Assembly (NCBI GenBank): GCA_001898505.1
Contig: MKTZ01000002.1
Location: 62,001-126,000 of the forward strand
From: Sphingobacteriales bacterium 50-39
GTDB lineage: Bacteria; Bacteroidota; Bacteroidia; Chitinophagales; Chitinophagaceae
Reading direction: 5' to 3'
Length of the DNA stretch: 64,000 nt
The notes below the pieces were generated by a model, which saw nothing but the letters and a program-made list of their open reading frames with translations, was not told the DNA's origin and did no database searches. Positions 1 through 17,006 of this stretch are shown here, piece after piece; position 1 is the stretch's first letter; each line of letters starts with the position of its first letter. The translations under genes were made by a program, and so were the position numbers.

Positions 1-1370
1 CGGGCAGCCGCTTTCAGGGACACTCGCTGGATTATAGCCTCGGTTATAAAAGGACCTTTCCACAAGAAGATAGAGAGCTGAACATATCATATGATGGCAG
101 TTATGGCAACAACCATTCGGCCTATCACCAGTCCCAAAGTCTTCCGGATGGCAGCTCCACTTTCACCGGCTCCAACAGCCAAAGCGACGGACACGATCAT
201 GAGACGAATTTCCGTCTTGACTATGTACAACCCATGGGCGATAAAGTAAAGCTGGAGACGGGCGGCAGGGTGCAGATACGACAGATATCCAGCTCCTCTT
301 CCGTCTACACCCTAAACCCTTCTACGGGTGGCTATGTATACGACAGCGGGCAATCCAATTCCCTTTCCTATACTCGTCATGTATATGCGGGCTATGCTTC
401 CCTCACGTTCCCGCTTTTTAAATGGCTGGACATAAAAGGCGGACTCCGGTACGAGCGTACGGAAACAAATGCGGACTTCAGTAAATCCTCCGGTGCGAAT
501 ATCCCCGGCTACAATACATTTGCGCCTTCGCTCATTCTTTCCCATAGTTTCGAGAACGACCAGACTATCAAGATCGCCTATACCAAAAGGATACAGCGTC
601 CCAACTACAGGGTCCTTAATCCTTATTTCAATGTCAGTGATCCAAAGAACATTGTTACAGGCAATCCATACCTTCAGCCCGAGGTCAGCAACAACATCGA
701 CCTTACCTACTCCAAATCTTTCGAAAAAGGCAGCGCCATCAATATCGTCCTGTTCTATCACAGAAGCGACCACGATATCCAGCCTTTTATCACTTATTAT
801 CCCAGCTACACCATCGGCGATTCCGTATACCTCAATACTTCTGTCAGTATACCCATGAACGTGGGTTCGGAAAATAATTACGGGCTGAATGTCTATGGCT
901 CCGTGCCCATTGGTCCCAAGCTCAATCTCCGCAGCAATCTTTCCTTTTTTGACAGGTATATCACTACCGGCAGCCTGGGGGGCAGCAATGTGACCAGCTT
1001 CAATTACAGAATGAATATGAATGCTACCTACCAGATGAGCAAAACCTTTGTATTGGAGTTCTTTGGCAATTTCAATTCGGCCCGGAATGAGATCCAGGGT
1101 AAATACCCGTCCTTTACCTCCTACAATTTCGCCTTCCGCAAGCAAATTTGGAATAAAAAGGGCAGCATTGCTTTTTCTGCGACCAATCCCTTTGCCTCCA
1201 GCGTCCGGCAGGAAACCACCGTCAGTGGGCAAAACTTTTCGCTGCATACCCTCCAGCTCGTACCCTACCGAAGCTTTGGTATCAATTTTACCTACAAGTT
1301 TGGTAAATTGGAGTTCAAGAAGGATAAAGAAGAGCAAAAGGAACTCCCTCCCCTGCCAGACAATGGATAA
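1..1370 (+). CDS. Outer-membrane beta-barrel protein, TonB-receptor-like (5' end outside window)
   Basis: The reading frame is open from the first complete codon at base 3, upstream of any ATG, so the gene starts before the window. About 455 C-terminal residues are visible. They show alternating aromatic/polar beta-strands, the motif NPYLQPEVSNNIDL typical of PF14905-type barrels, and an ending rich in FTYKFGK-like strands. The family resembles TonB-dependent receptors of Bacteroidetes, but plug and N-terminal domain are not visible, so the ligand cannot be inferred. Only 6 nt separate it from the next gene, suggesting co-transcription. The protein encoded at 47711-50518 belongs to the same broad family. 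Confidence 0.85.
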   Translation, partial: GSRFQGHSLDYSLGYKRTFPQEDRELNISYDGSYGNNHSAYHQSQSLPDGSSTFTGSNSQSDGHDHETNFRLDYVQPMGDKVKLETGGRVQIRQISSSSSVYTLNPSTGGYVYDSGQSNSLSYTRHVYAGYASLTFPLFKWLDIKGGLRYERTETNADFSKSSGANIPGYNTFAPSLILSHSFENDQTIKIAYTKRIQRPNYRVLNPYFNVSDPKNIVTGNPYLQPEVSNNIDLTYSKSFEKGSAINIVLFYHRSDHDIQPFITYYPSYTIGDSVYLNTSVSIPMNVGSENNYGLNVYGSVPIGPKLNLRSNLSFFDRYITTGSLGGSNVTSFNYRMNMNATYQMSKTFVLEFFGNFNSARNEIQGKYPSFTSYNFAFRKQIWNKKGSIAFSATNPFASSVRQETTVSGQNFSLHTLQLVPYRSFGINFTYKFGKLEFKKDKEEQKELPPLPDNG

Positions 1371-1376
1371 TCAACT

Positions 1377-2408
1377 ATGTTTAACAAAACCAAACCCCAT
1401 ATGATTCACCTACGATCTTGCTTATTTGCTATTTGTACCATCATGCTGTCCGCTACCAGCATGGCCCAGTCGACAGATTCTTTCCAGCTGTCCAAAACTT
1501 TTCGCATAGGCAGTCCCGGAGGATGGGACTATATCTCAGTAGGGCCAGACAAAAAAATATATGTCTCTCACGGCACTTATGTGGTGATCCTGGATGAGAA
1601 AAAAGGCGATTCCGTCGGTGTCATTCCCAACACCCCCGGCGTCCATGGCATTGCCTTCGATGAAGCCCTCGGGAAAGGCTATACCAGTAACGGGCGTAAT
1701 AACAGCGTCACTGTCTTTGAAATAAGGACGGGAAAAGTATTGAACCAGATCCCCACCGGGCAGAACCCCGATGCCATCATGTTCGACCCATTCACAAAGT
1801 CCGTCATAACGTGCAACGGCCGCAGCCATGACCTCAGCGTCATCGACCCGGTCACCGAACAGGTGACGGCAACGATCACATTGGATGGCAAGCCCGAGAC
1901 AGCAGTCTCGGATGACGCCGGCAGGATATACGTCAACATAGAAGATAAAAATAAGATCACGGTTGTGGACATGATCCACAAACAGGTGGTCACCAGTTGG
2001 TCGCTGTCTCCCGGCGATGGCCCTACGGGTCTGGCCATCGATAAAAAGACGAGGCGGTTATTCGCCGGCTGCGATAAATGGCTCATGGTAATGGATGCTG
2101 TCAGCGGCAGCATCGTTGGAAAATACCCCATCGGGGATGGATGTGACGGTGTTGCTTTCGACAGTCACCTGAAGGATATATTTGCCTCCTGCGGGGAAGG
2201 ATTGCTCACGGTCATTCATGAGAACTCAGCCAACTCCTTCCAGGTTGTTGCAAATGTTCCGACAAAGAGGAGCGCACGCACGCTGGCCGTTGACGAAAAC
2301 AACCATGAGGTCTTCCTTCCCGCCGCCGAAATGGAAAAAGGCGCCACGGGTGAAAGACCCAAACCGTTGCCCGGTACCTTTGAGGTTCTCGTAGTAGCCC
2401 GACGTTAG
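1377..2408 (+). CDS. Secreted YncE-like beta-propeller protein
   Basis: A 343-residue protein whose N terminus has a signal peptide (hydrophobic stretch LFAICTIMLSATSMAQ). An internal ATG at 1401 would give a more compact signal peptide and is an equally good start. The body consists of repeated ~40-residue blades of the type VDPVTEQVTATITLDGKPE, as in the YncE/surface-antigen 40-residue repeat family. Such proteins are periplasmic or surface propellers with diverse and often unknown ligands. It follows the barrel gene by 6 nt and precedes the pyrimidine genes by 54 nt, a gap that contains a strong palindrome, so it may belong to either unit. No catalytic motif was recognised. Confidence 0.8.
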   Translation: MFNKTKPHMIHLRSCLFAICTIMLSATSMAQSTDSFQLSKTFRIGSPGGWDYISVGPDKKIYVSHGTYVVILDEKKGDSVGVIPNTPGVHGIAFDEALGKGYTSNGRNNSVTVFEIRTGKVLNQIPTGQNPDAIMFDPFTKSVITCNGRSHDLSVIDPVTEQVTATITLDGKPETAVSDDAGRIYVNIEDKNKITVVDMIHKQVVTSWSLSPGDGPTGLAIDKKTRRLFAGCDKWLMVMDAVSGSIVGKYPIGDGCDGVAFDSHLKDIFASCGEGLLTVIHENSANSFQVVANVPTKRSARTLAVDENNHEVFLPAAEMEKGATGERPKPLPGTFEVLVVARR

Positions 2409-2434
2409 GAATAGCCCGGAATATGTCCGTTTTT

Positions 2435-2459
2435 CGTTAAATTGTAAATACAATTAACG
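2435..2459. promoter_or_regulatory. Candidate operator: near-perfect palindrome before mmsA
   Basis: The left arm CGTTAAATTGTA (2435-2446) and right arm TACAATTAACG (2449-2459) are reverse complements apart from one extra A in the left arm, with an AA spacer. It ends 3 nt before the ATG of the first catabolic gene. Size and symmetry suit a dimeric repressor such as GntR or TetR types. The regulator itself is not in the window, so identity is inference. Confidence 0.5.
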
Positions 2460-2462
2460 ATT

Positions 2463-3944
2463 ATGTTACGTACATCCGAAGCCATCGCCTCCAAATATGG
2501 ACGCCTGAAGAACTATGTCAACGGAGAATTTATCGACATCCCCGGCAGGACCATGTCCGTCATATCCCCTCTCGACGGGACTTTACTGGCGGAAATGCCC
2601 TGTTCCACATCTCAGGACCTTGACCAGGCCGTAAGAGCGGCACGGGCAGCCTTCCCATCCTGGAGCAGGACCCCGATAAAAGAAAGAGTACAGGTATTCT
2701 ATCGATACCGGCACTTGTTGGAAAAACATACGCAGGAGCTGGCAGCCCTCGTCAGTGAAGAGAATGGCAAGACGCTGGGCGAAGCGGTTGCAGAGGTGGA
2801 AAAATGTATCGAGCTCACAGAGTTCGCCGCCTCCCTTCCCCAGTTGATGACGGGCGAAGTGCTGGAAGTAAGCAAAGGGGTGGAATGCCGTACCGAACAT
2901 GTTCCCCTGGGTGTCGTGGCCTCCATCGTCCCGTTCAACTTCCCCGCGATGGTCCCCAACTGGACCATTCCCAATGCCATTGCTCTGGGCAACTGCATGA
3001 TTATAAAGCCCTCCGAGAAAGTTCCCCTCAGCGTAGGCCGTGTGGCCCTCCTCTTGCAGGAGGCTGGCTTGCCCGAAGGCGTATTCAACGTCGTCAATGG
3101 CGACAGCGAAATAGTGGAAGCCATCTGTGATCATTCGGGCATTGAAGCGGTCAGTTTCGTGGGCTCCACTCGCGTGGCCAGGCTGGTCTACCGGCGGGCT
3201 ACCTCCAACCTAAAAAGGTGCCTGGCGCTGGGTGGCGCAAAGAATCACCTGCTGGTGCTGCCGGATGCCAAACCCGAAATGACGGCACAAAATGTGGCTG
3301 CCTCCATGAGCGGATGTGCAGGTCAGCGCTGTATGGCAGCTTCCGCCATGGTAGCGGTCGGCGCCGTAGACCACATCGTGGAGAGGATATGTGAAGAGGC
3401 CCGCCGCATTGTCCCGGGCCGCAACCTGGGCGCGGTCATCAGCGCCGAAGCAAAAGAAAGGATCGAACGCTATATAACTGAAGCTGAACAGCAGGGAGCA
3501 AAAGTTCTCGTGGACGGTCGCGGCGCCACGGTCCCCGGCAAAGAAAAGGGCACGTATGTAGGCCCCACCGTCATCGACGGGGTCAAACCCAATATGGCGA
3601 TAGCAAGGGAGGAAATATTCGGCCCTGTCATCAGCATCATGCGCGTGGACAGTCTCGATGAAGCCCTGGCTATCGAGAACGCCAACCCCTACGGCAACGC
3701 TGCCTCCGTATTTACACAAAATGGCGGCTACGCACGTTATGTCATCGACCGGGCCTCGGCAGGTATGGTAGGTGTCAACGTAGGTGTACCCGTGCCGCGC
3801 GAACCTTTCTCATTCGGAGGCTGGAACGAAAGCAAATTCGGAGTGGGTGATATTACAGGAAAGAGTTCCATCGAATTCTGGACCCGGCTAAAGAAAAGCA
3901 CGGTAAAATGGAATCCCGAAGCCGGCATCAACTGGATGAGTTAA
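2463..3944 (+). CDS. mmsA: CoA-acylating (methyl)malonate-semialdehyde dehydrogenase
   Basis: This 493-residue aldehyde dehydrogenase has the features of the MmsA/IolA subfamily: the early PFNFPAMVPNW stretch, the GAKNH motif around residue 258-262, and the nucleophilic Cys290 in AGQRCMA. Family members oxidise malonate or methylmalonate semialdehyde with NAD and CoA, releasing CO2 and giving acetyl-CoA or propionyl-CoA. As first gene of the pyrimidine set it would complete uracil catabolism (beta-alanine to malonate semialdehyde to acetyl-CoA) and thymine catabolism (via methylmalonate semialdehyde). The length is normal for the family. A role in valine or inositol breakdown is the alternative, but the neighbours argue against it. 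Confidence 0.92.
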   Translation: MLRTSEAIASKYGRLKNYVNGEFIDIPGRTMSVISPLDGTLLAEMPCSTSQDLDQAVRAARAAFPSWSRTPIKERVQVFYRYRHLLEKHTQELAALVSEENGKTLGEAVAEVEKCIELTEFAASLPQLMTGEVLEVSKGVECRTEHVPLGVVASIVPFNFPAMVPNWTIPNAIALGNCMIIKPSEKVPLSVGRVALLLQEAGLPEGVFNVVNGDSEIVEAICDHSGIEAVSFVGSTRVARLVYRRATSNLKRCLALGGAKNHLLVLPDAKPEMTAQNVAASMSGCAGQRCMAASAMVAVGAVDHIVERICEEARRIVPGRNLGAVISAEAKERIERYITEAEQQGAKVLVDGRGATVPGKEKGTYVGPTVIDGVKPNMAIAREEIFGPVISIMRVDSLDEALAIENANPYGNAASVFTQNGGYARYVIDRASAGMVGVNVGVPVPREPFSFGGWNESKFGVGDITGKSSIEFWTRLKKSTVKWNPEAGINWMS

Positions 3945-3966
3945 CCTTAACTAAAAAATACTACAT

Positions 3967-5322
3967 ATGCCTTCTCCCGTCACTATGTCTGAAACCCAGG
4001 AGATACAACAGGAAAACTTCGATTACACCCTATTCTCCTGGAGCAAACAAAAAGGCCTCAACCCTATTGCCGTAAAATATGCCGAGGGAGTATATCTCTA
4101 TGACTATGATGGGAAAAAATACCTGGACTTCTCCTCAGGGCTGATGAATGTCAATATCGGCCATGGCAACCAGCGTGTCACCGCCGCCGTCGTCCGCCAG
4201 ATGCAGGAGGTCAGCTATGTAACGCCCAGCTGTGTGACCCGTGCGAGGGGTGAGTTGGGGCGACGCCTGGCAGCCATCACACCGGGCCATCTTAAAAAGA
4301 CCCTTTTCACGGTCTGTGGCGCCAGCGCTATCGACAACGCCATCAAGCTGGCAAGGCTCTATACAGGCCGTCATAAGATCATTACCCGTTACAGAGCTTT
4401 TCACGGAGCCTCCTACGGCTCCATGACCGCGGGGGGCGATCCCCGCAAACTGCCGCATGATGCCCAGCAAATGCCCAATATCGTCCATGTGGAAGACCCT
4501 TATTGCTATCGCTGCCCCTGGGGAAAAGAGATCAGCTCCTGTCACCGGGAATGTGTAAGCCATATTGAAAGGATCATCGAGCTGGAAGGACCGGAAACCG
4601 TTGCAGCCATCCTCATGGAAGGAGAGAGCGGCACTTCCGGCTGTATCAAATACCCACCGGACTATCTGCAAAAGATCAGGGCTCTTTGCGACAAACATGG
4701 CATCCTGCTCATCATCGACGAAGTAATGAGCGGCTTTGGACGCACCGGTAAGTGGTTCGCCTCCGAGCTCCATGGCATCGAGCCCGATATGATCGCCACG
4801 GCCAAAGGCATCACGGCGGGCTATATTCCATTGGGCGCCCTTATCGTAACGGACAGGATCGCGGATCATTTCGATGACCGCACGCTCTGGCTGGGCCTCA
4901 CCTACTCCGCCCATCCGGTGGCCTGCGCTGCAGGTGTGGAAGTGCTGAAGATATACGAGGATGAGAACCTCATCGAAAATGCGGCTGCCATGGGACATTA
5001 CCTTGAAGCCCAGGTGGAAAAGATGAAGGAGCGACATCCTTCCATCGGCGACTTCCGCAATACAGGGCTATTGGGCTGCCTGGAGCTGGTAAAGAACAGG
5101 ACCACCAAAGAACCCATGGCGCCTTTCAATGCGCGGCCAGAGGAGATGGCCATCATGAACCAGGTGGCGGGCCGTCTCCGGCAGTTGGGCATGTATGCCT
5201 TTGTACGCTGGAACTATGTCTTTATCGCCCCTCCGTTGACCATTACCCGTGAACAAATGGACGAAGGATTGGCCATCATCAGTGACGCGCTGACCATTGC
5301 AGATGCACAAACACACTCCTAA
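3967..5322 (+). CDS. Class III omega-aminotransferase (probable beta-alanine/beta-aminoisobutyrate aminotransferase)
   Basis: A 451-residue PLP enzyme of aminotransferase class III. Visible motifs are LIIDEVMSGFGRTGKW (PLP-phosphate and Asp region) and ATAKGITAGYIPLGA with the Schiff-base Lys near residue 280. A Cys-rich insert (YCYRCPWGKE...CHREC) occurs in the taurine/beta-alanine-pyruvate branch. In context it should convert beta-alanine (from uracil) and 3-aminoisobutyrate (from thymine) to the semialdehydes used by the preceding gene. The amino acceptor cannot be read from sequence. A second ATG lies 18 nt into the frame. The next gene starts 1 nt after its stop, suggesting translational coupling. 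Confidence 0.88.
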   Translation: MPSPVTMSETQEIQQENFDYTLFSWSKQKGLNPIAVKYAEGVYLYDYDGKKYLDFSSGLMNVNIGHGNQRVTAAVVRQMQEVSYVTPSCVTRARGELGRRLAAITPGHLKKTLFTVCGASAIDNAIKLARLYTGRHKIITRYRAFHGASYGSMTAGGDPRKLPHDAQQMPNIVHVEDPYCYRCPWGKEISSCHRECVSHIERIIELEGPETVAAILMEGESGTSGCIKYPPDYLQKIRALCDKHGILLIIDEVMSGFGRTGKWFASELHGIEPDMIATAKGITAGYIPLGALIVTDRIADHFDDRTLWLGLTYSAHPVACAAGVEVLKIYEDENLIENAAAMGHYLEAQVEKMKERHPSIGDFRNTGLLGCLELVKNRTTKEPMAPFNARPEEMAIMNQVAGRLRQLGMYAFVRWNYVFIAPPLTITREQMDEGLAIISDALTIADAQTHS

Positions 5323-5323
5323 T

Positions 5324-6502
5324 ATGATAAGGATCGTCTACATTATCCTGCTGCTTTTTACCACACAACTTTTTGCCCAGACCAAAAGAGCGCGTGATTT
5401 CGGCGTCCCTTTCGACGGCAACACCGGCGCTTTTAATGCCATCACCGACGTACCGGGCGTCACGGTTGGCCAGACAACGATCATAAAAGGAGATGGGCCT
5501 CTGATCAAGGGAGAAGGCCCTGTGCGTACCGGCGTAACGGCTATCCTTCCCCGTGGCCAGGAGTTCGATCCCGTCTATGCCTCCTGGTATACCCTCAACG
5601 GCAATGGCGATATGACAGGCACACACTGGATCACAGAATCCGGGTTCCTGGAAACCCCCATCCTCATCACCAACACGGGCAGCGTAGGCGTCGTGCGCGA
5701 CGCGGCATGGCAGTGGATGGATCGTCATCATTATTATACCCCTTTTTTTAAAGATTATTGGTACGCATATCCCGTCGTGGCAGAGACATACGACGGCGTG
5801 TTCAATGACATCAATGGTCAGCACGTCACTAAGGAGGACGTCTTCAAAGCCCTGGACAGTGCTCGCACCGGAAAGGTACAGGAGGGCGGCGTGGGAGGCG
5901 GTACGGGCATGATGTGCTATAACTTCAAGGGGGGCATCGGCACTGCCAGCCGCGTATTGGATAAAGATCGTGGAGGCTATACTGTGGGGGTATTGGTACA
6001 GGCCAATCACGGCGTCCGTAACCAGCTGACTATCGCCGGTGTTCCCGTAGGTAAAGAATTGGCCGACACCCTTCCTTATATCATAGAAGGGCAGCCGATG
6101 GGAATGGCCACCACTCCCCGCCAGGAAGAAACAGGGTCCATCATCGTCGTCCTGGCCACCGACGCGCCATTGCTGCCGGGGCAGCTCAAACGGCTGGCGC
6201 AACGCATTCCACTGGGTCTAACCCGTACAGGAGGCATAGGGGGTAATGGGTCGGGTGATATCTTTATCACCTTTTCAACGGCAAATAAAAAGGCGTTCAG
6301 CAATACGCAGAATACGGAGGTGACTACGCTGAGCAACGATCAGATCAACGGCCTTTTTGTCGCCACTATCCAGGCTACTGAAGAAGCCATCATCAATGCC
6401 CTGTTTGCGGGAAAGACCATGACAGGTATCAATGGCAACACCGTTCATGGCCTGCCCCGGGAGGCGGTCATCCGTATCCTGAAAAAATACCATCGTATGT
6501 AA
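5324..6502 (+). CDS. Exported P1-family (DmpA/BapA-like) aminopeptidase
   Basis: The chosen ATG directly follows the stop of the aminotransferase (TAAtATG); an in-frame TTG 27 nt upstream is less likely because the ATG begins a clean signal peptide ending FAQ. The mature protein matches peptidase family P1 (L-aminopeptidase D-Ala-esterase, beta-peptidyl aminopeptidase). GGIGGNGSGDIF contains the expected autoprocessing Gly-Ser site, with the N-terminal nucleophile at about Ser310; the EGGVGGGTGM block is also typical. Family members cleave N-terminal D-amino acids or beta-amino acids such as beta-alanine from peptides. Within a beta-alanine-producing operon, a beta-alanyl peptidase acting in the periplasm is the favoured reading, but specificity is inferred from context. 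Confidence 0.88.
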   Translation: MIRIVYIILLLFTTQLFAQTKRARDFGVPFDGNTGAFNAITDVPGVTVGQTTIIKGDGPLIKGEGPVRTGVTAILPRGQEFDPVYASWYTLNGNGDMTGTHWITESGFLETPILITNTGSVGVVRDAAWQWMDRHHYYTPFFKDYWYAYPVVAETYDGVFNDINGQHVTKEDVFKALDSARTGKVQEGGVGGGTGMMCYNFKGGIGTASRVLDKDRGGYTVGVLVQANHGVRNQLTIAGVPVGKELADTLPYIIEGQPMGMATTPRQEETGSIIVVLATDAPLLPGQLKRLAQRIPLGLTRTGGIGGNGSGDIFITFSTANKKAFSNTQNTEVTTLSNDQINGLFVATIQATEEAIINALFAGKTMTGINGNTVHGLPREAVIRILKKYHRM

Positions 6503-6519
6503 CAAAAAGCATACCTGCT

Positions 6520-8004
6520 ATGACAACCACTACTTCCTCAGAGCCGTCCACTGCGTTATACAGCGAAGACCTGGCGCCTGTCCCTCTTCCGGCGAGGAAA
6601 TGGAACACATGGAACTATGCTGCTCTCTGGATCAGTATGAGTCTCTGCATACCCACCTATATGTTGGCCAGCTCCCTCATAGGCGGCGGGATGAATTGGT
6701 GGCAGGCCATCCTCACCATTTTTTTGGGGAATACCATCGTACTGATACCCATGATCCTTAATGGCCGGGCCGGCGCGAAGTACGGTATCCCCTTTCCCGT
6801 CTTTGCCCGCGCCAGCTTTGGCGTCAGAGGCGCCAATATCCCTGCCATGCTGCGAGCCATCGTCGCCTGTGGCTGGTTTGGTATCCAGACCTGGATCGGA
6901 GGGTTCGCCATCTACCAGGCAGCACGTCTTTGGATACCATCCCTGGCTACTTTGCCACCAATATTCCCCTCCGGCTGGGGATTACAGACAGGACCCGCTA
7001 TTTGTTTTATCCTGTTCTGGACATTGAACATGTACGTGGTCTGGCTTGGCGTAGACAGTATCCGCAGGCTTCTTGTCTTTAAAGCATTTTTTCTTCCCAT
7101 TGCGGCCCTCGCCCTTCTCTTTTGGGCCATCACGGCCGTACACGGCGGGCTGGGCCCCATCCTTACCCAACCCGCCCGTCTGCAAGGCCCAGCGTTCTGG
7201 ACCTTCTTCGTACCCGCCCTCACAGGTATGGTAGGCTTCTGGGCCACCTTGTCGCTCAACATACCCGACTTCACCCGCTATGCTGTCAGCCAGCGGGCAC
7301 AAATAAAAGGTCAGGCCATTGGTCTTCCGCCCTCTATGACCCTTTTTGCATTTATCGGGGTCGTGGTTACTTCTGCGACTACACTTTTATACGGTGAGCC
7401 TATATGGGATCCCGTTGTACTGGCGGGGAAGTTCGAGAGCAGGCTGCTGGTAACCTTGGCAATGATCGCCGTGGCCATTTCCACCCTGGCCACCAACATC
7501 GCCGCTAACATCGTAAGTCCCGCCAATGACTTTGCCAACCTCTATCCCCAAAAAATAAATTTCCGCACGGGCGGCTTCATCACCGGTGTTCTGGGCATTC
7601 TTATCTTCCCCTGGAAACTGATCGCCGACCCGGGAGGTTATATATTCACCTGGCTGGTAGGTTACTCCAGCCTGCTGGGACCCATCGGCGGTATCCTCAT
7701 CGCGGACTATTATCTCATCAGACGACAGCAATTGAATGTCGCTGATCTTTATTCATTACATGGCGCATATGCTTATACATCCGGCTTTAACAGGAGGGCC
7801 ATCGGCTGTCTCCTGCTGGGCATAGTCCCTAATGTTCCGGGATTCCTGGCAACCATCGGGGTCATCAGCCCGGGCGCCTTGCCGGCATGGATCATATCTC
7901 TATACAGCTATGCCTGGTTTGTAGGCTTCTTTATTTCAGGCCTCGGCTACTGGCTTTCTTTTAACGATAAAAAACAGGTCACCTATGTCAGTGTTGATTA
8001 CTAA
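6520..8004 (+). CDS. NCS1 family nucleobase/hydantoin permease
   Basis: A 494-residue integral membrane protein with about 12 hydrophobic segments. It carries NCS1 signatures: the N-terminal R-x-W-N-x-W-N-Y motif (RKWNTWNYAALW), GAKYGIPFPVFARASFGVRGANIPA, and NIPDFTRYA. This is the family of PucI, Mhp1 and cytosine permeases, sodium- or proton-coupled importers of uracil, allantoin, hydantoins and related rings. Placed directly before dihydropyrimidinase, with which it overlaps by 20 nt, it most likely imports uracil, thymine or dihydropyrimidines. Substrate is inferred from the operon. Confidence 0.92.
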   Translation: MTTTTSSEPSTALYSEDLAPVPLPARKWNTWNYAALWISMSLCIPTYMLASSLIGGGMNWWQAILTIFLGNTIVLIPMILNGRAGAKYGIPFPVFARASFGVRGANIPAMLRAIVACGWFGIQTWIGGFAIYQAARLWIPSLATLPPIFPSGWGLQTGPAICFILFWTLNMYVVWLGVDSIRRLLVFKAFFLPIAALALLFWAITAVHGGLGPILTQPARLQGPAFWTFFVPALTGMVGFWATLSLNIPDFTRYAVSQRAQIKGQAIGLPPSMTLFAFIGVVVTSATTLLYGEPIWDPVVLAGKFESRLLVTLAMIAVAISTLATNIAANIVSPANDFANLYPQKINFRTGGFITGVLGILIFPWKLIADPGGYIFTWLVGYSSLLGPIGGILIADYYLIRRQQLNVADLYSLHGAYAYTSGFNRRAIGCLLLGIVPNVPGFLATIGVISPGALPAWIISLYSYAWFVGFFISGLGYWLSFNDKKQVTYVSVDY

Positions 8005-9367
8005 CGGCAGGATCGTCACTGCCTCGGATGATTTTGTCGGCGACATCTATATAGAAGGAGAAAAGATCACCGCCATCGGCAAACATCTCAACGTTATGGC
8101 CGATGAGACCATCGACGCCACCGGTCAGCTGATTATGCCTGGCGGTATCGACCCCCATGTTCACCTGGACATGCCTTTTATGGGTACCTTCTCCAGTGAC
8201 AGCTACGAGACGGGAACAAGGGCCGCCCTTTTCGGAGGCACCACTACGGTCATCGACTTCATCCTGCAAAAACAGGGACATTCGCTACAGGCGGCGCTGG
8301 ACGAATGGAATGGCCGTGCCACGGGCAACGCCGTAGGCGACTACAGCTTCCACATGGCCGTGACGGATTTTAATGACAAGACAAGGCCGGAAATAAAGAC
8401 AATGGTGGAACAGCATGGTATTACTTCCTTCAAGACCTTCATGGCTTACAAAGGGGCGCTTATGATAGATGACAGGCAGATGACGGCTCTTATGCAGGAA
8501 GTCCGCCGGCATGGAGGGCTGGTCACTGTTCACGCTACCAATGGAGACATGATCGACTATCTGATTGCTCGTCATCGGGAGGAAGGCAAGCTGTCACCGC
8601 GCTATCATTATCTGTCTCAGCCCGAGGTCACGGAAGCCGAAGCCACCGGACGATTTGCGGCTATCTCCCACTATACAGGCTGCCCCGGTTATGTTGTACA
8701 CCTCACCTGTGAGGGCGCACTCAATGCTGTACGCAACGCTACCACCCGCAATCAGCACGTGTGGGTAGAGACCTGCATACAATACCTCCTGCTGGATGCC
8801 TCCCGCTATGGCGAAGACTTCGAAGGGGCCAAATGGGTAATGAGCCCACCCTTGCGGGAAAAGAAAGATCAGGCCACTTTATGGGCGGGCATCAACCAGG
8901 GAGTGGTGAATGTCGTGGCCACCGACCATTGCCCCTTCCGCTGGGAGCAGAAGCTGCTGGGAAAGGATGATTTCTCGAAGATACCCAACGGTCATCCCGC
9001 CATCGAACACAGGATGGAGCTGCTGTACAGCGAAGGCGTACGAAAAGGGAGGATCGGCCTGAACAAATACGTGGAGCTTACCTCTACCAATCCTGCAAAG
9101 ATCTTCGGGCTCTTCCCTCGTAAAGGTACACTGTCGCCGGGCAGCGATGCCGACATCATCCTGCTGGATCCCAATCGCCAGCATACGCTCACGGCAACCA
9201 CACATCATATGAATGTGGACTATTCCGCCTATGAAGGATGGCAGCTCACGGGCAAGATACAGACGGTGCTCCTGAGGGGGAAGGTGGCCATCCGGGATGG
9301 AGAATGCAAGATAGCCAGAGGCTACGGACAATTCATCCGCCGGGGACGGCATACAGGACTTAGCTAA
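7985..9367 (+). CDS. hydA: Dihydropyrimidinase (D-hydantoinase)
   Basis: A 460-residue cyclic amidohydrolase. All metal ligands of the D-hydantoinase/dihydropyrimidinase family are present: H58 and H60 in GIDPHVHLD, the carbamylated Lys150 in SFKTFMAYKG, H183, H239 and D314 in ATDHCPF. The enzyme opens 5,6-dihydrouracil or dihydrothymine to N-carbamoyl-beta-amino acids in the cytoplasm. Length and spacing of ligands are normal. It starts inside the end of the permease gene (20-nt overlap), which implies translational coupling. An allantoinase or true hydantoinase function is possible, but adjacent PreT/PreA and beta-ureidopropionase genes make dihydropyrimidinase much more likely. Confidence 0.95.
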   Translation: MSVLITNGRIVTASDDFVGDIYIEGEKITAIGKHLNVMADETIDATGQLIMPGGIDPHVHLDMPFMGTFSSDSYETGTRAALFGGTTTVIDFILQKQGHSLQAALDEWNGRATGNAVGDYSFHMAVTDFNDKTRPEIKTMVEQHGITSFKTFMAYKGALMIDDRQMTALMQEVRRHGGLVTVHATNGDMIDYLIARHREEGKLSPRYHYLSQPEVTEAEATGRFAAISHYTGCPGYVVHLTCEGALNAVRNATTRNQHVWVETCIQYLLLDASRYGEDFEGAKWVMSPPLREKKDQATLWAGINQGVVNVVATDHCPFRWEQKLLGKDDFSKIPNGHPAIEHRMELLYSEGVRKGRIGLNKYVELTSTNPAKIFGLFPRKGTLSPGSDADIILLDPNRQHTLTATTHHMNVDYSAYEGWQLTGKIQTVLLRGKVAIRDGECKIARGYGQFIRRGRHTGLS

Positions 9368-9388
9368 CATTAACCAATAACGAATCTT

Positions 9389-10255
9389 ATGTCCAGAATG
9401 ATCAGATCAGGCCTCATCCAGATGAGCCTTCCCAAGACGGAAGGAGAAGGAAGCATTGAAGAGATAAAGGAAGCGATGCTGCAGAAACACATTCCCCTCA
9501 TCGAACAGGCAGGGGAAAAAGGCGTACAGATACTCTGTCTGCAAGAGATATTCAATACACCCTATTTCTGTCCGGGCCAGAACCGCGCCTGGTATGATTC
9601 CGCCGAACCCGTACCCGGCCCCACCGTGGAAAGGATGACGGCCTATGCCAAAAAATACAATATGGTCATGATCGTACCTGTCTACGAAAAAGAACAGGCA
9701 GGAGTGCTTTACAATACGGCCGCCGTCATCGATGCGGACGGGACTTTCCTGGGGAAATACCGCAAAAACCATATCCCCCACACGTCGGGCTTTTGGGAAA
9801 AGTTTTTCTTCAAGCCGGGCAATCTGGGCTATCCCGTCTTCCAGACCAGATATGCAAAGATCGGGGTGTACATCTGCTACGACCGGCATTTCCCCGATGG
9901 CGCGCGCGTCCTGGGCCTCAACGGAGCAGAGATAGTATACAACCCTTCCGCCACGGTAGCAGGTCTCTCCCAATACCTCTGGCACCTGGAACAACCTGCC
10001 CATGCAGCCGCCAACGGTTATTTCATGGGATGTATCAACCGCGTGGGGGAAGAGAAACCCTGGAACCTGGGCCGGTTCTACGGCAGCTCCTATTTTGTGG
10101 ATCCCCGTGGACAGATCTTCGCCCAGGCTTCCGAAGACAAGGACGAGCTCCTGGTGGCAGACTTCGACCTGGACATGATAGAAGAGGTACGAGGCGTATG
10201 GCAGTTCTACCGCGACCGCCGACCCGAAACGTATGGTAAACTGACAGAACTATGA
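9389..10255 (+). CDS. Beta-ureidopropionase (N-carbamoyl-beta-alanine amidohydrolase, nitrilase family)
   Basis: A 288-residue carbon-nitrogen hydrolase with the Glu-Lys-Cys triad of the nitrilase superfamily: E53 in LCLQEIF, K126 in GKYRKNHIPH, and C163 in VYICYDRHFPD. The sequence LQEIFNTPYFC is typical of the N-carbamoyl-beta-alanine amidohydrolase branch. It would hydrolyse N-carbamoyl-beta-alanine to beta-alanine, CO2 and ammonia, the step after dihydropyrimidinase. Its last four bases (ATGA) overlap the start of the next gene. N-carbamoylputrescine amidase is the closest alternative, but the operon argues for the pyrimidine role. Confidence 0.92.
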   Translation: MSRMIRSGLIQMSLPKTEGEGSIEEIKEAMLQKHIPLIEQAGEKGVQILCLQEIFNTPYFCPGQNRAWYDSAEPVPGPTVERMTAYAKKYNMVMIVPVYEKEQAGVLYNTAAVIDADGTFLGKYRKNHIPHTSGFWEKFFFKPGNLGYPVFQTRYAKIGVYICYDRHFPDGARVLGLNGAEIVYNPSATVAGLSQYLWHLEQPAHAAANGYFMGCINRVGEEKPWNLGRFYGSSYFVDPRGQIFAQASEDKDELLVADFDLDMIEEVRGVWQFYRDRRPETYGKLTEL

Positions 10256-11595
10256 TCCGTGACAATCGCCTTACAAAAGAACAATATGACCGGAACTTTT
10301 CCGACATACACCCGCCTTTCGAAACACGGGATGCGGCGCTTGTCGATGCCAACCGCTGTCTGTTCTGCTATGACGCCCCCTGCACAAAAAGCTGCCCGAC
10401 GGGCATCGATGTGCCCAAATTTATAAAACAGATAGCCACGGACGATATCAAAGGATCGGCCCGTACCATCTTCCTGTCCAATATCATGGGTGGCGGCTGC
10501 TCCCGCGTATGTCCCGTGGAAAAGCTCTGTGAAGGAGCCTGTGTCTACAACCTGATGGAAGAAGAGCCTATTCCTATCGCCAGGCTTCAACGCTATTCCA
10601 CCGACCGTGCTATGCAAGGGAAATGGCCTCTGTTCGTCCGTAAGCCCTCCGGGGGACATCGTGTCGCCGTCATCGGGGCGGGACCTGCTGGGCTTAGTGC
10701 TGCACATGTGCTATCCCGTGAGGGTGTCGATGTAACGATCTTTGAAAAAGAGGAAAAAGGTGGCGGCCTGATGACATATGGCGTCGCAGCATATAAGGTA
10801 ACACCTGAATACTGCGCCGAAGAGCTGGATTACATCTTGTCGCTTGGCGGTATAACTGTCCAATATGGCGCCGAATTGGGAAAGGACTTACCATTGGAAC
10901 AGCTGCGGGAGGAATATGACGCCGTGTTCCTTGCATTTGGTGTAGGCCTGGCCAGGCGGCTGGACATACCCGGTGAAGAACTTAATGGAGTGGTAGATGC
11001 TCTTCGATTTATATATTCCATCCGCGCCGATGGTTTTCCTTCCGTGCCCGTAGGCGATAAAGTAGCTGTCATCGGCATGGGTATGACTGCCATCGACGCG
11101 GCTACACAGGCCAGACGGCTGGGTGCGGGAGAGGTCACCCTGCTATACCGAAGGACGGAGGAGGAAATGCCCTGTACAAAAGCAGAGTTGGAGATCGCAC
11201 GTCTCGATGGATGCCGTATCTATTGGCTGGCAGCCCCCTGTGAGGTGATAGGCTCGGACGGCAGGGTCACGCAGCTGCGTTGCGAGAAGATGGAGCTGGG
11301 ACCACCCGATGCCAGTGGACGACGGGCGCCATGTCCCACAGGCGAGACATTTGCCATGGATGTGGATATGGTCATCAAGGCCACAGGTCAGATGCCTTTT
11401 GAACAGATGGTGGATGCAGGGGGCCTTTCTCATCACGGCGGCAAGATCGAGACCACGGGCCTCCACGGCATTACCTCCCTTCCCGGCGTCTTTGCAGGCG
11501 GCGATTGTGTCAACGGCGGCAAGGAAGTAGTAGATGCAGTACAGGCGGGCAAATTGAGCGCCGCAGCTATCCTTTCCTACTTACAAACTGTATAA
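10252..11595 (+). CDS. preT: NAD-dependent dihydropyrimidine dehydrogenase, PreT subunit
   Basis: A 447-residue flavoprotein resembling the small subunit of glutamate synthase and the N-terminal part of mammalian dihydropyrimidine dehydrogenase. The N-terminal Cys-rich domain (CLFCYDAPCTKSCPTGIDVP, then GGCSRVCPVEKLCEGAC) should bind two [4Fe-4S] clusters. Two Rossmann motifs follow: VIGAGPAGLSAAHVL for FAD near residue 137 and VIGMGMTAIDAA for NAD(P) near residue 273. The subunit passes electrons from NAD(P)H to PreA. It shares a 4-nt ATGA overlap with the upstream gene and is followed after 9 nt by preA. Confidence 0.93.
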   Translation: MIRDNRLTKEQYDRNFSDIHPPFETRDAALVDANRCLFCYDAPCTKSCPTGIDVPKFIKQIATDDIKGSARTIFLSNIMGGGCSRVCPVEKLCEGACVYNLMEEEPIPIARLQRYSTDRAMQGKWPLFVRKPSGGHRVAVIGAGPAGLSAAHVLSREGVDVTIFEKEEKGGGLMTYGVAAYKVTPEYCAEELDYILSLGGITVQYGAELGKDLPLEQLREEYDAVFLAFGVGLARRLDIPGEELNGVVDALRFIYSIRADGFPSVPVGDKVAVIGMGMTAIDAATQARRLGAGEVTLLYRRTEEEMPCTKAELEIARLDGCRIYWLAAPCEVIGSDGRVTQLRCEKMELGPPDASGRRAPCPTGETFAMDVDMVIKATGQMPFEQMVDAGGLSHHGGKIETTGLHGITSLPGVFAGGDCVNGGKEVVDAVQAGKLSAAAILSYLQTV

Positions 11596-11604
11596 ACCTA
11601 TTTT

Positions 11605-12873
11605 ATGGCTTCCCTTCATACCAACTATCTTGGCATCACGTCCCCCAATCCATTCTGGCTGGCCAGCGCTCCGCCGACGGACAAAAAGATCAACGTGCTG
11701 CGCGCCTTCGAGGCGGGATGGGGCGGTGTCGTATGGAAGACACTCGGCAGCCAGATAAAGAATGTATCCTCCCGCTATTCCGCGGTGGATTATCATGGCA
11801 GCCGTGTCATGGGGCTGAACAATATCGAACTTATTAGCGATCGTCCGTTGGAGCTGAATTTGCGGGAGATCAGGGAGTGTATCCGCCTCTTCCCCGACAG
11901 GGCCATGATCGTCAGCCTCATGGCTGACAACGACCGTGACAGCTGGCACGAGCTCATCCGTAAGGTGGAGGACACGGGAGCGCATGGACTGGAGCTGAAT
12001 TTTGGCTGTCCCCATGGCATGACGGAACGTGGCATGGGCGCCGCAGTAGGACAGGATCCCGTGATCGCCCGCCTGGTCACCGAATGGGTCATGGAGGTAG
12101 CCACCATACCCGTTATCACCAAGCTCACACCCAACGTTCATTCCGTAGTGCCTACAGGCCGTGCGGCTGTGGAAGCCGGCAGCCAGGGTCTCTCCCTCAT
12201 CAATACGATCCAATCGGTGACGGGTGTGGACCTGGACACCTTTATTCCCAATCCAAATGTGGGCGGCAAGTCCACCTTTGGCGGCTACTGTGGTCCCGCC
12301 GTGAAACCCATTGCGTTGAAAATGCTCACCACCATCGCGCAGGACAGCATTACGTCCAAAGTCCCCATCTCCGGCATCGGCGGCATCAGCACCTGGAAGG
12401 ACGCCGCAGAGTTCATGCTCCTGGGTTCCACTACAGTGCAGGTATGCACTGCCGTGATGAAGCACGGCTTTCGTATCATCGACGGACTTTGTGAGGGGCT
12501 CAGCAACTGGATGGATGAAAAAGGATTTAACAGGACCACTGACTTCATCGGTCGCAGCGTCCCTACCCTCACGCATTGGGAAGATCTCGACCTCAACTAC
12601 CACATCGTAGCGCGAATCGATCCGGACAAGTGTATTCATTGCGGACTTTGCTACATAGCCTGTGAGGACGCCTCGCATCAATCTATCAGCCTGACACCCG
12701 GGCATCCTTACAATACTTACGCTATCAAGGAAGATGAATGCGTAGGCTGCAATTTGTGCAAGCTGGTCTGCCCTGTCGATGGATGTATTACCATGGTAGA
12801 GCAGCGCGTAGGCCCCGAATATCTTAATTGGAAGGAGTTCCAGCAACGGGGGCTTCCGCTGAACGATCATTGA
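11605..12873 (+). CDS. preA: NAD-dependent dihydropyrimidine dehydrogenase, PreA subunit
   Basis: A 422-residue protein with an FMN-binding dihydroorotate-dehydrogenase-like barrel (ELNFGCPHGMTERGMG, KLTPNVHS, GGYCGPAVKPIAL) and a C-terminal ferredoxin domain with eight Cys ligands (C343, C346, C349, C353; C379, C382, C385, C389). PreA reduces uracil and thymine to the dihydro forms, the committed step of the reductive route. Val148 sits where, from memory of the alignment, mammalian DPD has its general-acid Cys (before GQDP). It is the last gene of the operon. Its 3' end overlaps by 50 nt the 3' end of the convergent gene. Confidence 0.93.
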   Translation: MASLHTNYLGITSPNPFWLASAPPTDKKINVLRAFEAGWGGVVWKTLGSQIKNVSSRYSAVDYHGSRVMGLNNIELISDRPLELNLREIRECIRLFPDRAMIVSLMADNDRDSWHELIRKVEDTGAHGLELNFGCPHGMTERGMGAAVGQDPVIARLVTEWVMEVATIPVITKLTPNVHSVVPTGRAAVEAGSQGLSLINTIQSVTGVDLDTFIPNPNVGGKSTFGGYCGPAVKPIALKMLTTIAQDSITSKVPISGIGGISTWKDAAEFMLLGSTTVQVCTAVMKHGFRIIDGLCEGLSNWMDEKGFNRTTDFIGRSVPTLTHWEDLDLNYHIVARIDPDKCIHCGLCYIACEDASHQSISLTPGHPYNTYAIKEDECVGCNLCKLVCPVDGCITMVEQRVGPEYLNWKEFQQRGLPLNDH

Positions 12874-13604: not shown

Positions 13605-14596
13605 ATGCGCAAAAAGAATGACATCCTCTGGAAAGGGATGATGGAGGAGATATTCGATGATCTGTTACGGTTTCTTTTTCCGGAGATTGACCAGGTCGTC
13701 GATATAGATAAAGGTTTCGATTTTCTCGATAAAGAGCTGGGAGAAATATATCCGGAGCCAGATAAGGAGGCTGACACACGATTTGTCGACAAATTAATTA
13801 AGGTCCATTGCCGGGATGGCAAAGCTGAATGGTTTCTTGTACACCTGGAAGTCCAAGGCTACCCGGATAAACAATTTGCTGAAAGGATGTTTCAGTATTA
13901 CTATAGGATTTTCGATCGCTATAAGAAACCAGTAACCGCACTGGCAATTTTCACCGGGCGGCAGGGGAATAAAATGCCACAATGCTACACTTATACATTT
14001 TTGGGCACGAGCCTCGTATATAAATACAATATTTGTTGTATCACCGACTACTCCGATGAGATGTTGATGAATAGTGATAACCCTTTTGCGTTGATAGTGC
14101 TGGCGGCCAAAATGGCCTTGACTTCACGTACAGTTTCGGATGAAGCATTGATGGATAAGAAGCTGTTGATTGCCAGATTGTTGTATAAAAAAGGAATTTT
14201 TAGTGAAAAGAAAATCGCGGCAGTCCTGACCTTTTTGAGTAATTATGTTCAGTTTGGGAACCCGCAAACAAATTGTATTTTGAAGAGCAACTCGATCAAA
14301 TCACCGGTAAAAATAATCCTATGGGTATTATTGAGCAAGTGGCGGAAATGAGGGCGGAAGAAAAAGCAGTAAAGATAGCCGAAAAGATAGCTGGGGAAAT
14401 GGCTGAAAAGATCGCCGGGAAAATGGCTGAAAAAATGGCTGAAAAAATAGCTGAAGAAATGGCTAAAAAAATGGCTGAAGAACGTGAGGCTATTGTTAAA
14501 AGGCTATTGACCAACACTGAATTCTCTCCTGAAAAAATAGCTTCCCTGACCGGAGTTCCTTTGGCCTCCGTCGAAAAAATAAGAACGGGCTGCTAA
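13605..14596 (+). pseudogene. Rpn family (PD-(D/E)XK) recombination-promoting nuclease / transposase-like gene, frameshifted
   Basis: The first frame gives Rpn-like sequence (MRKKNDILWKGMMEEIFDDL, DKLIKV, EWFLVHLEVQGY with the Glu-x-Gln pair of the nuclease core, then RMFQYYYRIFDRY) until NPQTN at about base 14273. There the family-like continuation YFEEQLDQITGKNNPMGIIEQV appears in the -1 frame and runs to the stop at 14596; the original frame ends at 14351. One missing base in the AAATTG tract at 14270-14275 explains this. The C-terminal part has an Ala/Glu/Lys repeat tail and the usual SPEKIASLTGVP end. It is a probable pseudogene, unless the indel is a sequencing error or the protein is made by frameshifting. 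Confidence 0.75.
14371..14480 (+). repeat. Degenerate 12-nt tandem repeat encoding (A/G)E(K/E)(I/M) units
   Basis: About nine degenerate copies of a GCTGAAAAAATG-like unit are visible in the C-terminal coding part of the Rpn-like gene. They translate to a regular charged helix (AEKIAGEMAEKIAGKMAEKM). Such repeats are prone to slippage. Confidence 0.7.
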
Positions 14597-14629: not shown

Positions 14630-15817
14630 TTATTTCTTCACTGAGAATCTATATACCGTCGTAGTCTTATACTGCTGTCCCGGCTTCAGCTCCGTAGACG
14701 GGAAGGACGGCTCATTCGGGGAGTCGGGGAAATGCTGTGTCTCCAGACAGAATGCCGTACGGTGATCGTCCTTCTTACCACCTTTCAGCGGGTTGCTCCC
14801 ATTCATGAAATTACCTCCATAGAACTGGATGCCCGGCTGATCCGTCAACACTTCCATAAATATGTCGCTTTGATCTCCCAATACCGTAGCTGCAAGATTC
14901 AGCCCGGAGCCCTTGCCGGGGTTCAGGACAAAATTATGGTCATATCCTTTGCCAAATTTCAATTGCTGGTTGGGAGAGTCTATACGGGCGCCGATGGCCG
15001 TTGGCTTGGTAAAATCAAAAGGCGTACCCGCTACAGGCTCCAGCTTACCCGTAGGGATCAGCGTAGAGTCGACGGGTGTATACCGGGCTGCGTTCAGCTG
15101 TAGTACATGATTATTGATCGTACCGTTGCCCTGACCATTCAGGTTGAAATAAGTATGGTTCGTCAGATTGACCACCGTGGGTTTGTCGGTAGTGGCTTCG
15201 TAGTCTATCTTCAGACAATTGGTGCTATCGCCGATTAACGTATAGGTCACCTTTGCCAATAGTTTGCCAGGATAGCCCTCTTCCTGGTCCTGGGAAAGAT
15301 AGGTCAGCTCCAGCGTGCTGTCATTGAGTTTTTGAGGATCCCACTCGTGCGCGCCGAAACCTTTGAGCCCGCCATGAAGATGATTGGGACCATTATTGGT
15401 GGCCAGTTTGTATTCTTTGCCTTCCAGCTTGAACTTCCCTTTGCCAATACGGTTGCCATAACGGCCCACGATGGCTCCAAAGTAACTCTCGGGCTGATGA
15501 ATATATTTACCGACACTATCATATCCCAACGCAACATCAGTCATTACCCCATTCTTATCGGGTACCAGCAGGCTGACGACCCTGGCGCCATAGCTGGTAA
15601 TAGCAGCCGTTGCGTTGTTCTTGTTCTTGAGGATATACAAAGACGTGGCCTTTCCATCCACGCTGTCTGTAAAGTTTTTCGCATCCGGCAATGCAGGTGC
15701 GGTAGCAACAGTAGAATCTGCAGGCTTTTCAGTAGCGGTCCCGTTATTGGAGTTGCCACAGCTGGCCAGCATACAGGCCCCGACAACACAGGCGAAAGAA
15801 GCAAAAGATCTGGTCAT
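14630..15817 (-). CDS. galM: Aldose 1-epimerase (galactose mutarotase), lipoprotein
   Basis: A 395-residue protein with a lipoprotein signal peptide (CMLASC lipobox, Cys20) followed by a Ser/Thr/Ala-rich linker. The catalytic domain has aldose epimerase motifs GRYGNRIGKGKF, NNGPNHLHGG (catalytic His region) and NLTNHTYFNLNG (second His), with the catalytic Glu expected near AFCLETQHFPDSPNE. It interconverts alpha and beta anomers of galactose or other aldoses, here at the periplasmic face of a membrane. It lies 16 nt downstream of galK in the same direction, so the pair is an operon. Confidence 0.92.
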   Translation of the reverse strand: MTRSFASFACVVGACMLASCGNSNNGTATEKPADSTVATAPALPDAKNFTDSVDGKATSLYILKNKNNATAAITSYGARVVSLLVPDKNGVMTDVALGYDSVGKYIHQPESYFGAIVGRYGNRIGKGKFKLEGKEYKLATNNGPNHLHGGLKGFGAHEWDPQKLNDSTLELTYLSQDQEEGYPGKLLAKVTYTLIGDSTNCLKIDYEATTDKPTVVNLTNHTYFNLNGQGNGTINNHVLQLNAARYTPVDSTLIPTGKLEPVAGTPFDFTKPTAIGARIDSPNQQLKFGKGYDHNFVLNPGKGSGLNLAATVLGDQSDIFMEVLTDQPGIQFYGGNFMNGSNPLKGGKKDDHRTAFCLETQHFPDSPNEPSFPSTELKPGQQYKTTTVYRFSVKK

Positions 15818-15833
15818 ATAGCAATGATTGTTT

Positions 15834-17006
15834 TTATATCAGCGAAGTGCCGTTCTCTATCTGGCCAATGTATACCTTCAGCTCCTTATTCATCGCCTTG
15901 GCATAAACAGGCGTCAGGTCTGCAATAAGCTCATCGATCACATCCTCCCGTACCAGGTTGATCGTACAGCCGCCAAAACCGCCCCCCATCATCCTTGCAC
16001 CGATGACACCGGGTCTCCCCTTTACCTGCTCTACCAGGAAATCCGCCTCGGGGCAGCTGACCTCATACTTCCGGCTGAGTCCTTCATGGGTTGCAAACAT
16101 CTTCTGTCCGAAGGCTTCGATGTTGCCATTGTTGAGGTCCTCGCTGGCTGCCAGCAGGCGAAGATTTTCTTCTACTACATATTGACAGCGACGGTATACC
16201 AGCTCATCCACGGGAGCCACATACTTGTCCAGCATTTCCAGCGTGGCATCCCGCAGGCTGCGTACCTGTGGATGATGTGCCTGGATCAGCGCCACCCCCG
16301 CCTCGCATTGCCGACGACGGGTATTGTATTCCGAGCTGGCAAGAGAATGTTTTACATTTGTATCCAACAGCACGATACGGATGCCATCCGTATTGAATGG
16401 AGCGTATTTATATTCCAGGGACTGGCAGTCCAGCTGTATGACATGGTTTTTTCGGCCAAACATGCTGGCAAATTGATCCATGATCCCGCATTGTACTCCT
16501 ACAAACTCGTTCTCGGCCTTTTGGGCCAGCTTGACCATCGTCAGCGGGTCCATCTTCAAACCAAACAGCTCATTTAGGGAAAATGCCGTAGCGCATTCCA
16601 GCGCAGCAGAAGAGGACATACCGGCCCCCAGGGGAATATCCCCGCCAAAGACACAGTTAAAGCCCCCGACATGATAACCCTTGGCCTGTATTTGCTGGAT
16701 AACCCCCAATATATAATCAGGCCAATGAAGAGAAGATGGAACTACTTTGTCCATATCTCCCAGGTAGCTGAGTTCCAAGTCCAGGGATACAATATGAATA
16801 AGATTGTCGTCCCTGCGGGAGACAGCCATGTAGATCGCCTTATTGATGGCGGCCGGCATGACAAACCCATTGTTATAGTCCGTATGCTCCCCGATCAGGT
16901 TTACCCTGCCAGGAGACCGAATCACCACGGGATCAGTATTAAAAGTTTCCTTGAATTTTTCTATAATGCGGGAGGACAGTGTCTTATCTTGTTGAGTTGC
17001 TATCAT
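15834..17006 (-). CDS. galK: Galactokinase
   Basis: A 390-residue GHMP kinase. The ATG at 17006 is preferred to an in-frame TTG at 17015. Motifs are the galactokinase signature GRVNLIGEHTDYNNGFVMP, the ATP-binding GGDIPLGAGMSSSAALE, and the C-terminal GARMMGGGFGGCTINLV. The enzyme phosphorylates alpha-D-galactose at C1 with ATP, using the anomer supplied by the downstream mutarotase. Other Leloir genes (galT, galE) are not in the window. A perfect inverted repeat 19-41 nt upstream of the start suggests transcriptional control. Confidence 0.95.
   Translation of the reverse strand: MIATQQDKTLSSRIIEKFKETFNTDPVVIRSPGRVNLIGEHTDYNNGFVMPAAINKAIYMAVSRRDDNLIHIVSLDLELSYLGDMDKVVPSSLHWPDYILGVIQQIQAKGYHVGGFNCVFGGDIPLGAGMSSSAALECATAFSLNELFGLKMDPLTMVKLAQKAENEFVGVQCGIMDQFASMFGRKNHVIQLDCQSLEYKYAPFNTDGIRIVLLDTNVKHSLASSEYNTRRRQCEAGVALIQAHHPQVRSLRDATLEMLDKYVAPVDELVYRRCQYVVEENLRLLAASEDLNNGNIEAFGQKMFATHEGLSRKYEVSCPEADFLVEQVKGRPGVIGARMMGGGFGGCTINLVREDVIDELIADLTPVYAKAMNKELKVYIGQIENGTSLI

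Follow-up and report, generated by a model that had tools for sequence, protein, structure and literature searches.

An S58 peptidase gene within a predicted reductive pyrimidine operon of Sphingobacteriales bacterium 50-39

Beta-aminopeptidases of the S58 family have been studied for the making of carnosine and for the cutting of synthetic beta-peptides, and, to our knowledge, their role in the host is unclear. Here, we describe a gene for a peptidase of this family, P1, that lies within an apparent operon for pyrimidine catabolism in a 64,000-nucleotide (nt) stretch of the genome of Sphingobacteriales bacterium 50-39 (contig MKTZ01000002.1, positions 62,001 to 126,000; this whole stretch is termed the window herein). 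The closest described systems for the operon are the bacterial reductive pyrimidine (Pyd/Pre) clusters, with which it shares PreTA, a dihydropyrimidinase, a ureidopropionase, a presumed beta-alanine aminotransferase, and a malonic-semialdehyde enzyme; in such bacterial Pyd gene clusters, PydA to PydE and MSDH are named in a figure legend (PMC7332683). For the peptidase, they are DmpA and Pseudomonas BapA and BapF, which passages of one paper report as specific for carnosine breakdown (PMC9235088). We consider it likely that the locus is a pyrimidine operon in which P1 releases a beta-amino acid from peptides into an end route shared by both substrates and formed by an aminotransferase (AT) and MmsA, and that an outer-membrane barrel gene and a beta-propeller gene located directly upstream are separate from it. 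The features are as follows.

1..1370, + strand: OMP_b-brl_3 outer-membrane barrel, 3' part; judged to lie outside the operon
1398..2408, + strand: YncE-like exported beta-propeller; judged to lie outside the operon, a lineage-specific neighbor
2409..2462, no strand: A+T-rich gap of 54 nt before MmsA, seen in the sequence
2463..3944, + strand: MmsA, CoA-acylating (methyl)malonate-semialdehyde dehydrogenase (TIGR01722 above cut-off)
3967..5322, + strand: AT, class-III aminotransferase (PRK06062 above cut-off)
5324..6502, + strand: P1, S58 N-terminal nucleophile (Ntn) peptidase of the DmpA/BapA family, exported-looking, between AT and NCS1 (Peptidase_S58)
6520..8004, + strand: NCS1, nucleobase/hydantoin permease (TIGR00800 above cut-off)
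7985..9367, + strand: HYD, dihydropyrimidinase/D-hydantoinase (TIGR02033 above cut-off)
9389..10255, + strand: BUP, nitrilase-type beta-ureidopropionase (CN_hydrolase; solved relatives)
10252..11595, + strand: PreT, NAD(P)H/FAD/Fe-S subunit of dihydropyrimidine dehydrogenase (Fer4_20, Pyr_redox_2; neighborhood)
11605..12873, + strand: PreA, FMN/Fe-S subunit of dihydropyrimidine dehydrogenase (NF006183 above cut-off)

All ten genes at positions 1 to 12873 of the window are located on the + strand, and the unit proper, which may be transcribed as one, runs from MmsA to PreA (2463 to 12873). According to the open reading frame (ORF) coordinates, the genes of this unit are separated by 22 nt (MmsA-AT), 1 nt (AT-P1), 17 nt (P1-NCS1), 21 nt (HYD-BUP), and 9 nt (PreT-PreA) or overlap by 20 nt (NCS1-HYD) and 4 nt (BUP-PreT), which upholds the original prediction that they are packed with gaps of 1 to 22 nt or overlaps; the gap of 1 nt assumes that P1 starts with the ATG at 5324 and not with the mechanical TTG start at 5297. 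The 54 nt between the propeller gene and MmsA exceed any gap from MmsA to PreA (22 nt at most), and the unit likely starts in this interval (2409 to 2462).

Judged by family membership, the MmsA-to-PreA genes other than P1 would give a complete-looking reductive route from uracil and thymine to acetyl-CoA or propionyl-CoA, as had been proposed from the sequence. In the NCBIfam search, MmsA (TIGR01722, 523.7 bits; cut-off, 448.5), HYD (TIGR02033, 596.3 bits; cut-off, 393.25), NCS1 (TIGR00800, 400.2 bits; cut-off, 353.1), and PreA (NF006183, 647.1 bits; cut-off, 335) all scored above the cut-offs of their models. The top solved relatives of MmsA are methylmalonate-semialdehyde dehydrogenases, HYD resembles D-hydantoinase among solved proteins, the nearest solved relative of NCS1 is the Mhp1 hydantoin permease, and PreA aligned in two stretches with the solved dihydropyrimidine dehydrogenase 1gt8. 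PreT, which is adjacent to PreA, was called from its Fer4_20 and Pyr_redox_2 domains and its neighborhood. For BUP and PreT, no listed NCBIfam model scored above cut-off, and there was no NCBIfam ureidopropionase match above cut-off; the best solved relatives of BUP were 2vhh (CG3027-PA), 8pt4, and 6ftq, the last two of which are named beta-ureidopropionase and, like 1gt8, are presumably of animal origin. AT matched PRK06062 (500.4 bits; cut-off, 472), a model that is titled "hypothetical protein" and names no substrate. Since its best solved relative is a taurine:2-oxoglutarate aminotransferase (6jix), we infer from the pathway that it is a beta-alanine/beta-aminoisobutyrate aminotransferase.

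P1 scored 389.3 bits against the Pfam family Peptidase_S58 (cut-off, 23.9), with no S58 match in the NCBIfam search, and aligned over nearly its whole length with the solved relatives DmpA (338 bits) and BapA (314 bits). The predicted Gly-Ser autocleavage site, G271-S272, is invariant in 8 of 8 aligned relatives, and the stretch after it reads SIIVVLATDA in the window; for a reconstruction of an ancestral DmpA, passages of PMC9570944 report cleavage at Gly-Ser, which yielded SIIVVIATDA. A second, distant S58 peptidase gene is present in the same genome away from the operon (G000:C27:447554-448654, locus L177; 46 to 50% identity).

In the pathway that we propose, NCS1 would take up uracil, thymine, or a similar ring compound, which PreTA would reduce and HYD would open, and BUP would yield beta-alanine or beta-aminoisobutyrate, from which AT would form the semialdehyde and MmsA acetyl-CoA or propionyl-CoA. 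P1 would be exported, cut itself at Gly-Ser, and, outside the inner membrane, cleave beta-alanine (or a related beta-amino acid) off the N terminus of short peptides, e.g., carnosine-type dipeptides. The freed beta-amino acid would then enter through an importer encoded outside the operon and join the AT-MmsA end. P1 would thereby be an optional addition to the beta-alanine half of the pathway and not to the pyrimidine half.

This division into halves is suggested by P1 loci of other genomes. A genome-collection scan with two peptide patterns identified 160 relatives, from which the best 80 P1 loci were kept; in seven of these best 80 of 160, P1 is located directly behind MmsA-AT, and some of the other 73 are too short upstream to judge. 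Four of the seven continue with NCS1: L178 (Puia dinghuensis, with the full operon), L180, L181, and L184 (from a Flavisolibacter metagenome-assembled genome [MAG]), with L180 and L181 being identical in lengths and positions to the loci of genomes G264 and G195. In the remaining three, L183, L185, and L240 (the last from Mucilaginibacter), MmsA, AT, and P1 share a strand, the surrounding genes look unrelated, and pyrimidine genes are missing from the ~10 kb nearby. Their assemblies contained no PreA above cut-off and no dihydropyrimidinase match better than 24 to 27% identity (pieces of <100 residues aside), and the same searches in Puia recovered PreA above cut-off and HYD at 79% identity. 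Because MmsA-AT-P1 is kept where no pyrimidine route was found, P1 appears to be tied to the beta-alanine end and not to pyrimidines. The original prediction that pyrimidine and beta-alanyl-peptide catabolism merge gains support, by inference, from this recurrence of P1 behind MmsA-AT, also in three MAGs without a pyrimidine route found. Signal-like N termini were seen for the P1 proteins of the window, L178, L181, L183, L184, L185, and L240, and the start of L180 is unsure.

L183, L185, and L240 also bear on an alternative, in which P1 is a D-aminopeptidase or amidase that serves hydantoin or D-amino acid use together with HYD and NCS1 and has no part in beta-alanine release. The closest solved relative of P1 is DmpA, and HYD and NCS1 resemble D-hydantoinase and the hydantoin permease, as this alternative would have it. 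However, the assemblies of L183, L185, and L240 keep MmsA-AT-P1 with no close hydantoinase found, and PreTA, MmsA, and AT suit pyrimidines and beta-amino acids, so that we regard it as improbable.

The history of P1 was followed in two trees, the first built from 57 of the 80 collection loci, the window, and one paralog from its own genome (on a very long branch) and the second from 25 of the 80 loci and the window. The five operon P1s (window, Puia, G264, G195, and L184) formed one clade in both trees, with support of 99/92 and 94/93, respectively. The P1s of L183 and L185 fell into a neighboring set, mixed with P1s of other or unseen settings, and that of L240 fell into a far clade. A single clade for all eight P1s was rejected (approximately unbiased test, p-AU 1e-10), as was a single clade for the seven without L240 (p-AU 3e-16; a set chosen after the tree was seen). 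Since a Mucilaginibacter P1 (L240) lies in a distant clade and a single clade was rejected, the association of P1 with MmsA-AT probably arose at least twice. On a quick AT tree, the P1-bearing operons were scattered (5 changes, with 500 of 500 shuffles as low), and the branching of the operon P1s, ((window,Puia),(G264,(G195,L184))), matched their order on the AT tree; by our own reckoning, a five-row match of this kind would arise by chance in about 1 of 15 cases. With five rows only, this agreement speaks modestly for P1 having been inserted long ago and then lost many times, over repeated transfer into one slot.

The pyrimidine core itself recurs in relatives. In a sample of 294 Chitinophagaceae genomes drawn from the larger family, PreA was found above cut-off in 55, the genome of the window included. 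Gene neighborhoods were compared on 57 contigs of 55 relatives, 54 of them with PreA above cut-off and one (G199) with a partial PreA below it, and the order MmsA-AT-NCS1-HYD-BUP-PreT-PreA was never broken. All seven core genes were present on 38 of the 57 contigs, with most of the remaining contigs ending first. For the counts of neighbor pairs and gaps, core and P1 matches of <40% identity were dropped, and the operon of the window was not part of the gap table. The pairs in relatives numbered 39 for MmsA-AT, 42 for AT-NCS1, 45 for NCS1-HYD, 49 for HYD-BUP, 51 for BUP-PreT, and 54 for PreT-PreA. At class level, among 30 AT loci (window included) from 47 matching genomes of 395, 25 had MmsA on the upstream side of AT, and 22 had NCS1 or HYD on the downstream side. 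The recurrence of the core order makes the gene set more than chance, and, given this order in Chitinophagaceae and the neighbors of AT at class level, the seven-gene pyrimidine operon is nothing unusual among Bacteroidia. Its tight packing, in contrast, is particular to the window; in the relatives' operons, the median gaps were wider (354 nt for MmsA-AT, 164.5 nt for PreT-PreA, and 130 nt for HYD-BUP).

Some loci of relatives showed peculiarities. In G027 and G077 (L038/L145 and L037/L143), no MmsA was found in the ~10 kb upstream of AT. G215:C38 (L043) has a second, overlapping BUP match and G167:C40 (L083) a PreT match in two pieces, possibly due to frame breaks. In G070, which has MmsA-AT and no PreA above cut-off, AT is followed by a gene (L308, 2972-4021) that we take to encode a secreted nucleoside hydrolase-like protein. 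Small ORFs resembling IS200-type transposases were seen 3' of AT in L184 (3004-3468, between AT and P1) and in L306 (3690-4151).

Several observations weigh against a role for P1 as a working part of this operon, foremost its rarity there. P1 was present at the AT-NCS1 junction in only 2 of 44 assessable relatives (G195 and G264); a scan without the 40% identity filter (E 1e-8) revealed no further P1 at the junction, and, since the AT-NCS1 gaps without P1 measure at most 625 nt, there is no room for a hidden one. The operon of G035, a genome of the same genus, is present in a genome with no P1 match. P1 matches occurred in 70 of the 294 Chitinophagaceae genomes, and among 20 fetched P1 loci of the family (a set without the window and G195), core genes stood beside P1 only at L159 (G264). 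In 12 genomes with PreA (G027, G029, G038, G040, G047, G158, G172, G193, G214, G215, G249, and G289), a P1 was present on a contig other than that of PreA, and among 30 class-level P1 loci, AT lay beside P1 in the window only. DmpA is a better-scoring match to P1 than BapA, so its beta-aminopeptidase specificity is only putative for P1, and the MmsA-to-PreA unit contains no beta-alanine importer. The assemblies of L183, L185, and L240 are MAGs by title, of unstated completeness, and the absence of pyrimidine genes from them is therefore not final. Gaps of >100 nt are frequent in the relatives' operons, so that a single transcript is not a given. The proposal that P1 is built into the gene set thus stands only in part: the same slot is occupied in Puia, the Flavisolibacter MAG, G195, and G264, and just 2 of 44 assessable relatives have it.

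Counts of this kind would suit an ordinary reductive pyrimidine operon in which P1 is a passenger in a tolerated slot with no metabolic tie to its neighbors: 42 of 44 relatives lack P1 between AT and NCS1, the majority of the observed P1 genes are located at other sites, and P1-bearing operons are as scattered on the AT tree as shuffled labels. Against a passenger stand the recurrence of P1 behind MmsA-AT without pyrimidine genes in L183, L185, and L240, in one case from a distant P1 clade, and the grouping of the five operon P1s in a single clade whose branching agrees with the AT tree, as if retained since an ancestor. We therefore consider a passenger unlikely, if a more serious alternative than the hydantoin one, and continue to favor a P1 that feeds the AT-MmsA end. 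A broader reading, that exported S58 peptidases were joined at least twice to the beta-alanine AT-MmsA unit in Bacteroidota, with or without pyrimidine genes, as a beta-peptide module sharing the end route of uracil, has in our estimate about an even chance of being right. If true, it would provide these peptidases, which are best known as biocatalysts, with a function in the physiology of their hosts.

The original prediction also had the unit take its substrate from the outer membrane inward, with the barrel and the propeller carrying it across the outer membrane for the pathway. Both genes are on the same strand as the operon, with gaps of 27 nt between barrel and propeller and 54 nt between propeller and MmsA, and the propeller adjoins MmsA also in G035 and Puia. 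However, among 36 relatives with at least 1 kb visible upstream of MmsA, a barrel homologue was found upstream of MmsA in none (G035, with only 1.2 kb visible, being barely assessable), nor was one present in Puia, and the propeller adjoined MmsA in 1 of the 36 (G035). Propeller matches at E 0.001, weak ones counted, occurred in 110 of 195 family genomes, and in G173 (contig 2, 175,770 versus 688,561) and G004 they are distant from PreA. At the 15 best propeller loci, MmsA or the barrel stood alongside only in the window and G035, and the neighbors at six other propeller loci look unrelated. In Puia, a pair of ATP-binding cassette (ABC) genes (L178, 2392-5962) and the propeller are located next to MmsA, with no barrel. 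On the gene order of relatives and of Puia, we reject the barrel and the propeller as operon members; they probably belong to other units. As their linkage is not conserved, the outer-membrane idea, which had presupposed such conservation, fails, and we hold transport by these two proteins for the pathway to be very improbable.

The barrel gene is cut by the edge of the window; the whole gene encodes 829 amino acids (L002, 13881-16370) and starts ~1,120 nt before the window. Two overlapping ABC exporter-like genes (L002, 10294-13840) lie directly 5' of it. Further upstream, a SusC/SusD-like pair with anti-sigma/sigma-like genes (L002, 3285-10136) has, by its look only, the appearance of a polysaccharide-type uptake locus.

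At the start of the unit, a 16-nt palindrome, AATTGT-AAAT-ACAATT, is located at about 2440 to 2455, just 5' of MmsA. An operator of the form TTGTA-N0-4-TACAA was considered and rejected, as this pattern matched 5' of MmsA in the window only and in none of 43 other upstream regions in a rough scan (3 of the 43 regions are <100 nt, and the strand of each was set by a simple open-frame test). Among the matches listed, six per region, A+T-rich palindromes were present in many MmsA upstream regions. Promoter and terminator scans gave counts near the level of shuffled sequence (15 versus 12.6 and 17 versus 13.5, respectively) and were little informative. On the 3' side of the operon, two overlapping ORFs in different frames (13605-14351 and 14273-14596) presumably represent a single transposase-type gene (Rpn/PD-(D/E)XK) that is interrupted by a frame break, and they are followed on the - strand (14630-17015) by genes that we take to be aldose-1-epimerase- and galactokinase-like. 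Similar-looking ORFs also follow the operon in Puia (L178, 17514-19868), and the downstream border of the operon thus looks kept.

Compared with known systems, the locus differs from the Pyd/Pre clusters in its exported-looking S58 peptidase between AT and the permease and in its ureidopropionase, which is of the nitrilase type. From the animal dihydropyrimidine dehydrogenase and beta-ureidopropionase, which it resembles in the alignment of PreA with 1gt8 and in the solved relatives of BUP, it differs in that PreT and PreA are separate subunits and are encoded in an operon of a bacterium. In the open-access literature searched (titles, abstract openings, and some passages), we came across no description of a pyrimidine operon that contains an S58 peptidase. 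P1 shares a whole-length match, the Gly-Ser site, and an exported-looking N terminus with the S58/P1 family (DmpA [1b65], BapA [3n2w], and the Pseudomonas beta-alanyl dipeptidases), and it is linked to genes that would burn its presumed product, a setting not described for these proteins in the literature searched. Pyd clusters that include an aminotransferase and a semialdehyde enzyme have been described, and what appears to be new, by the literature searched, is the exported-looking S58 peptidase in the cluster; its genome contexts point to a role for S58 peptidases in which beta-alanine from peptides may be fed into the end route of pyrimidines.

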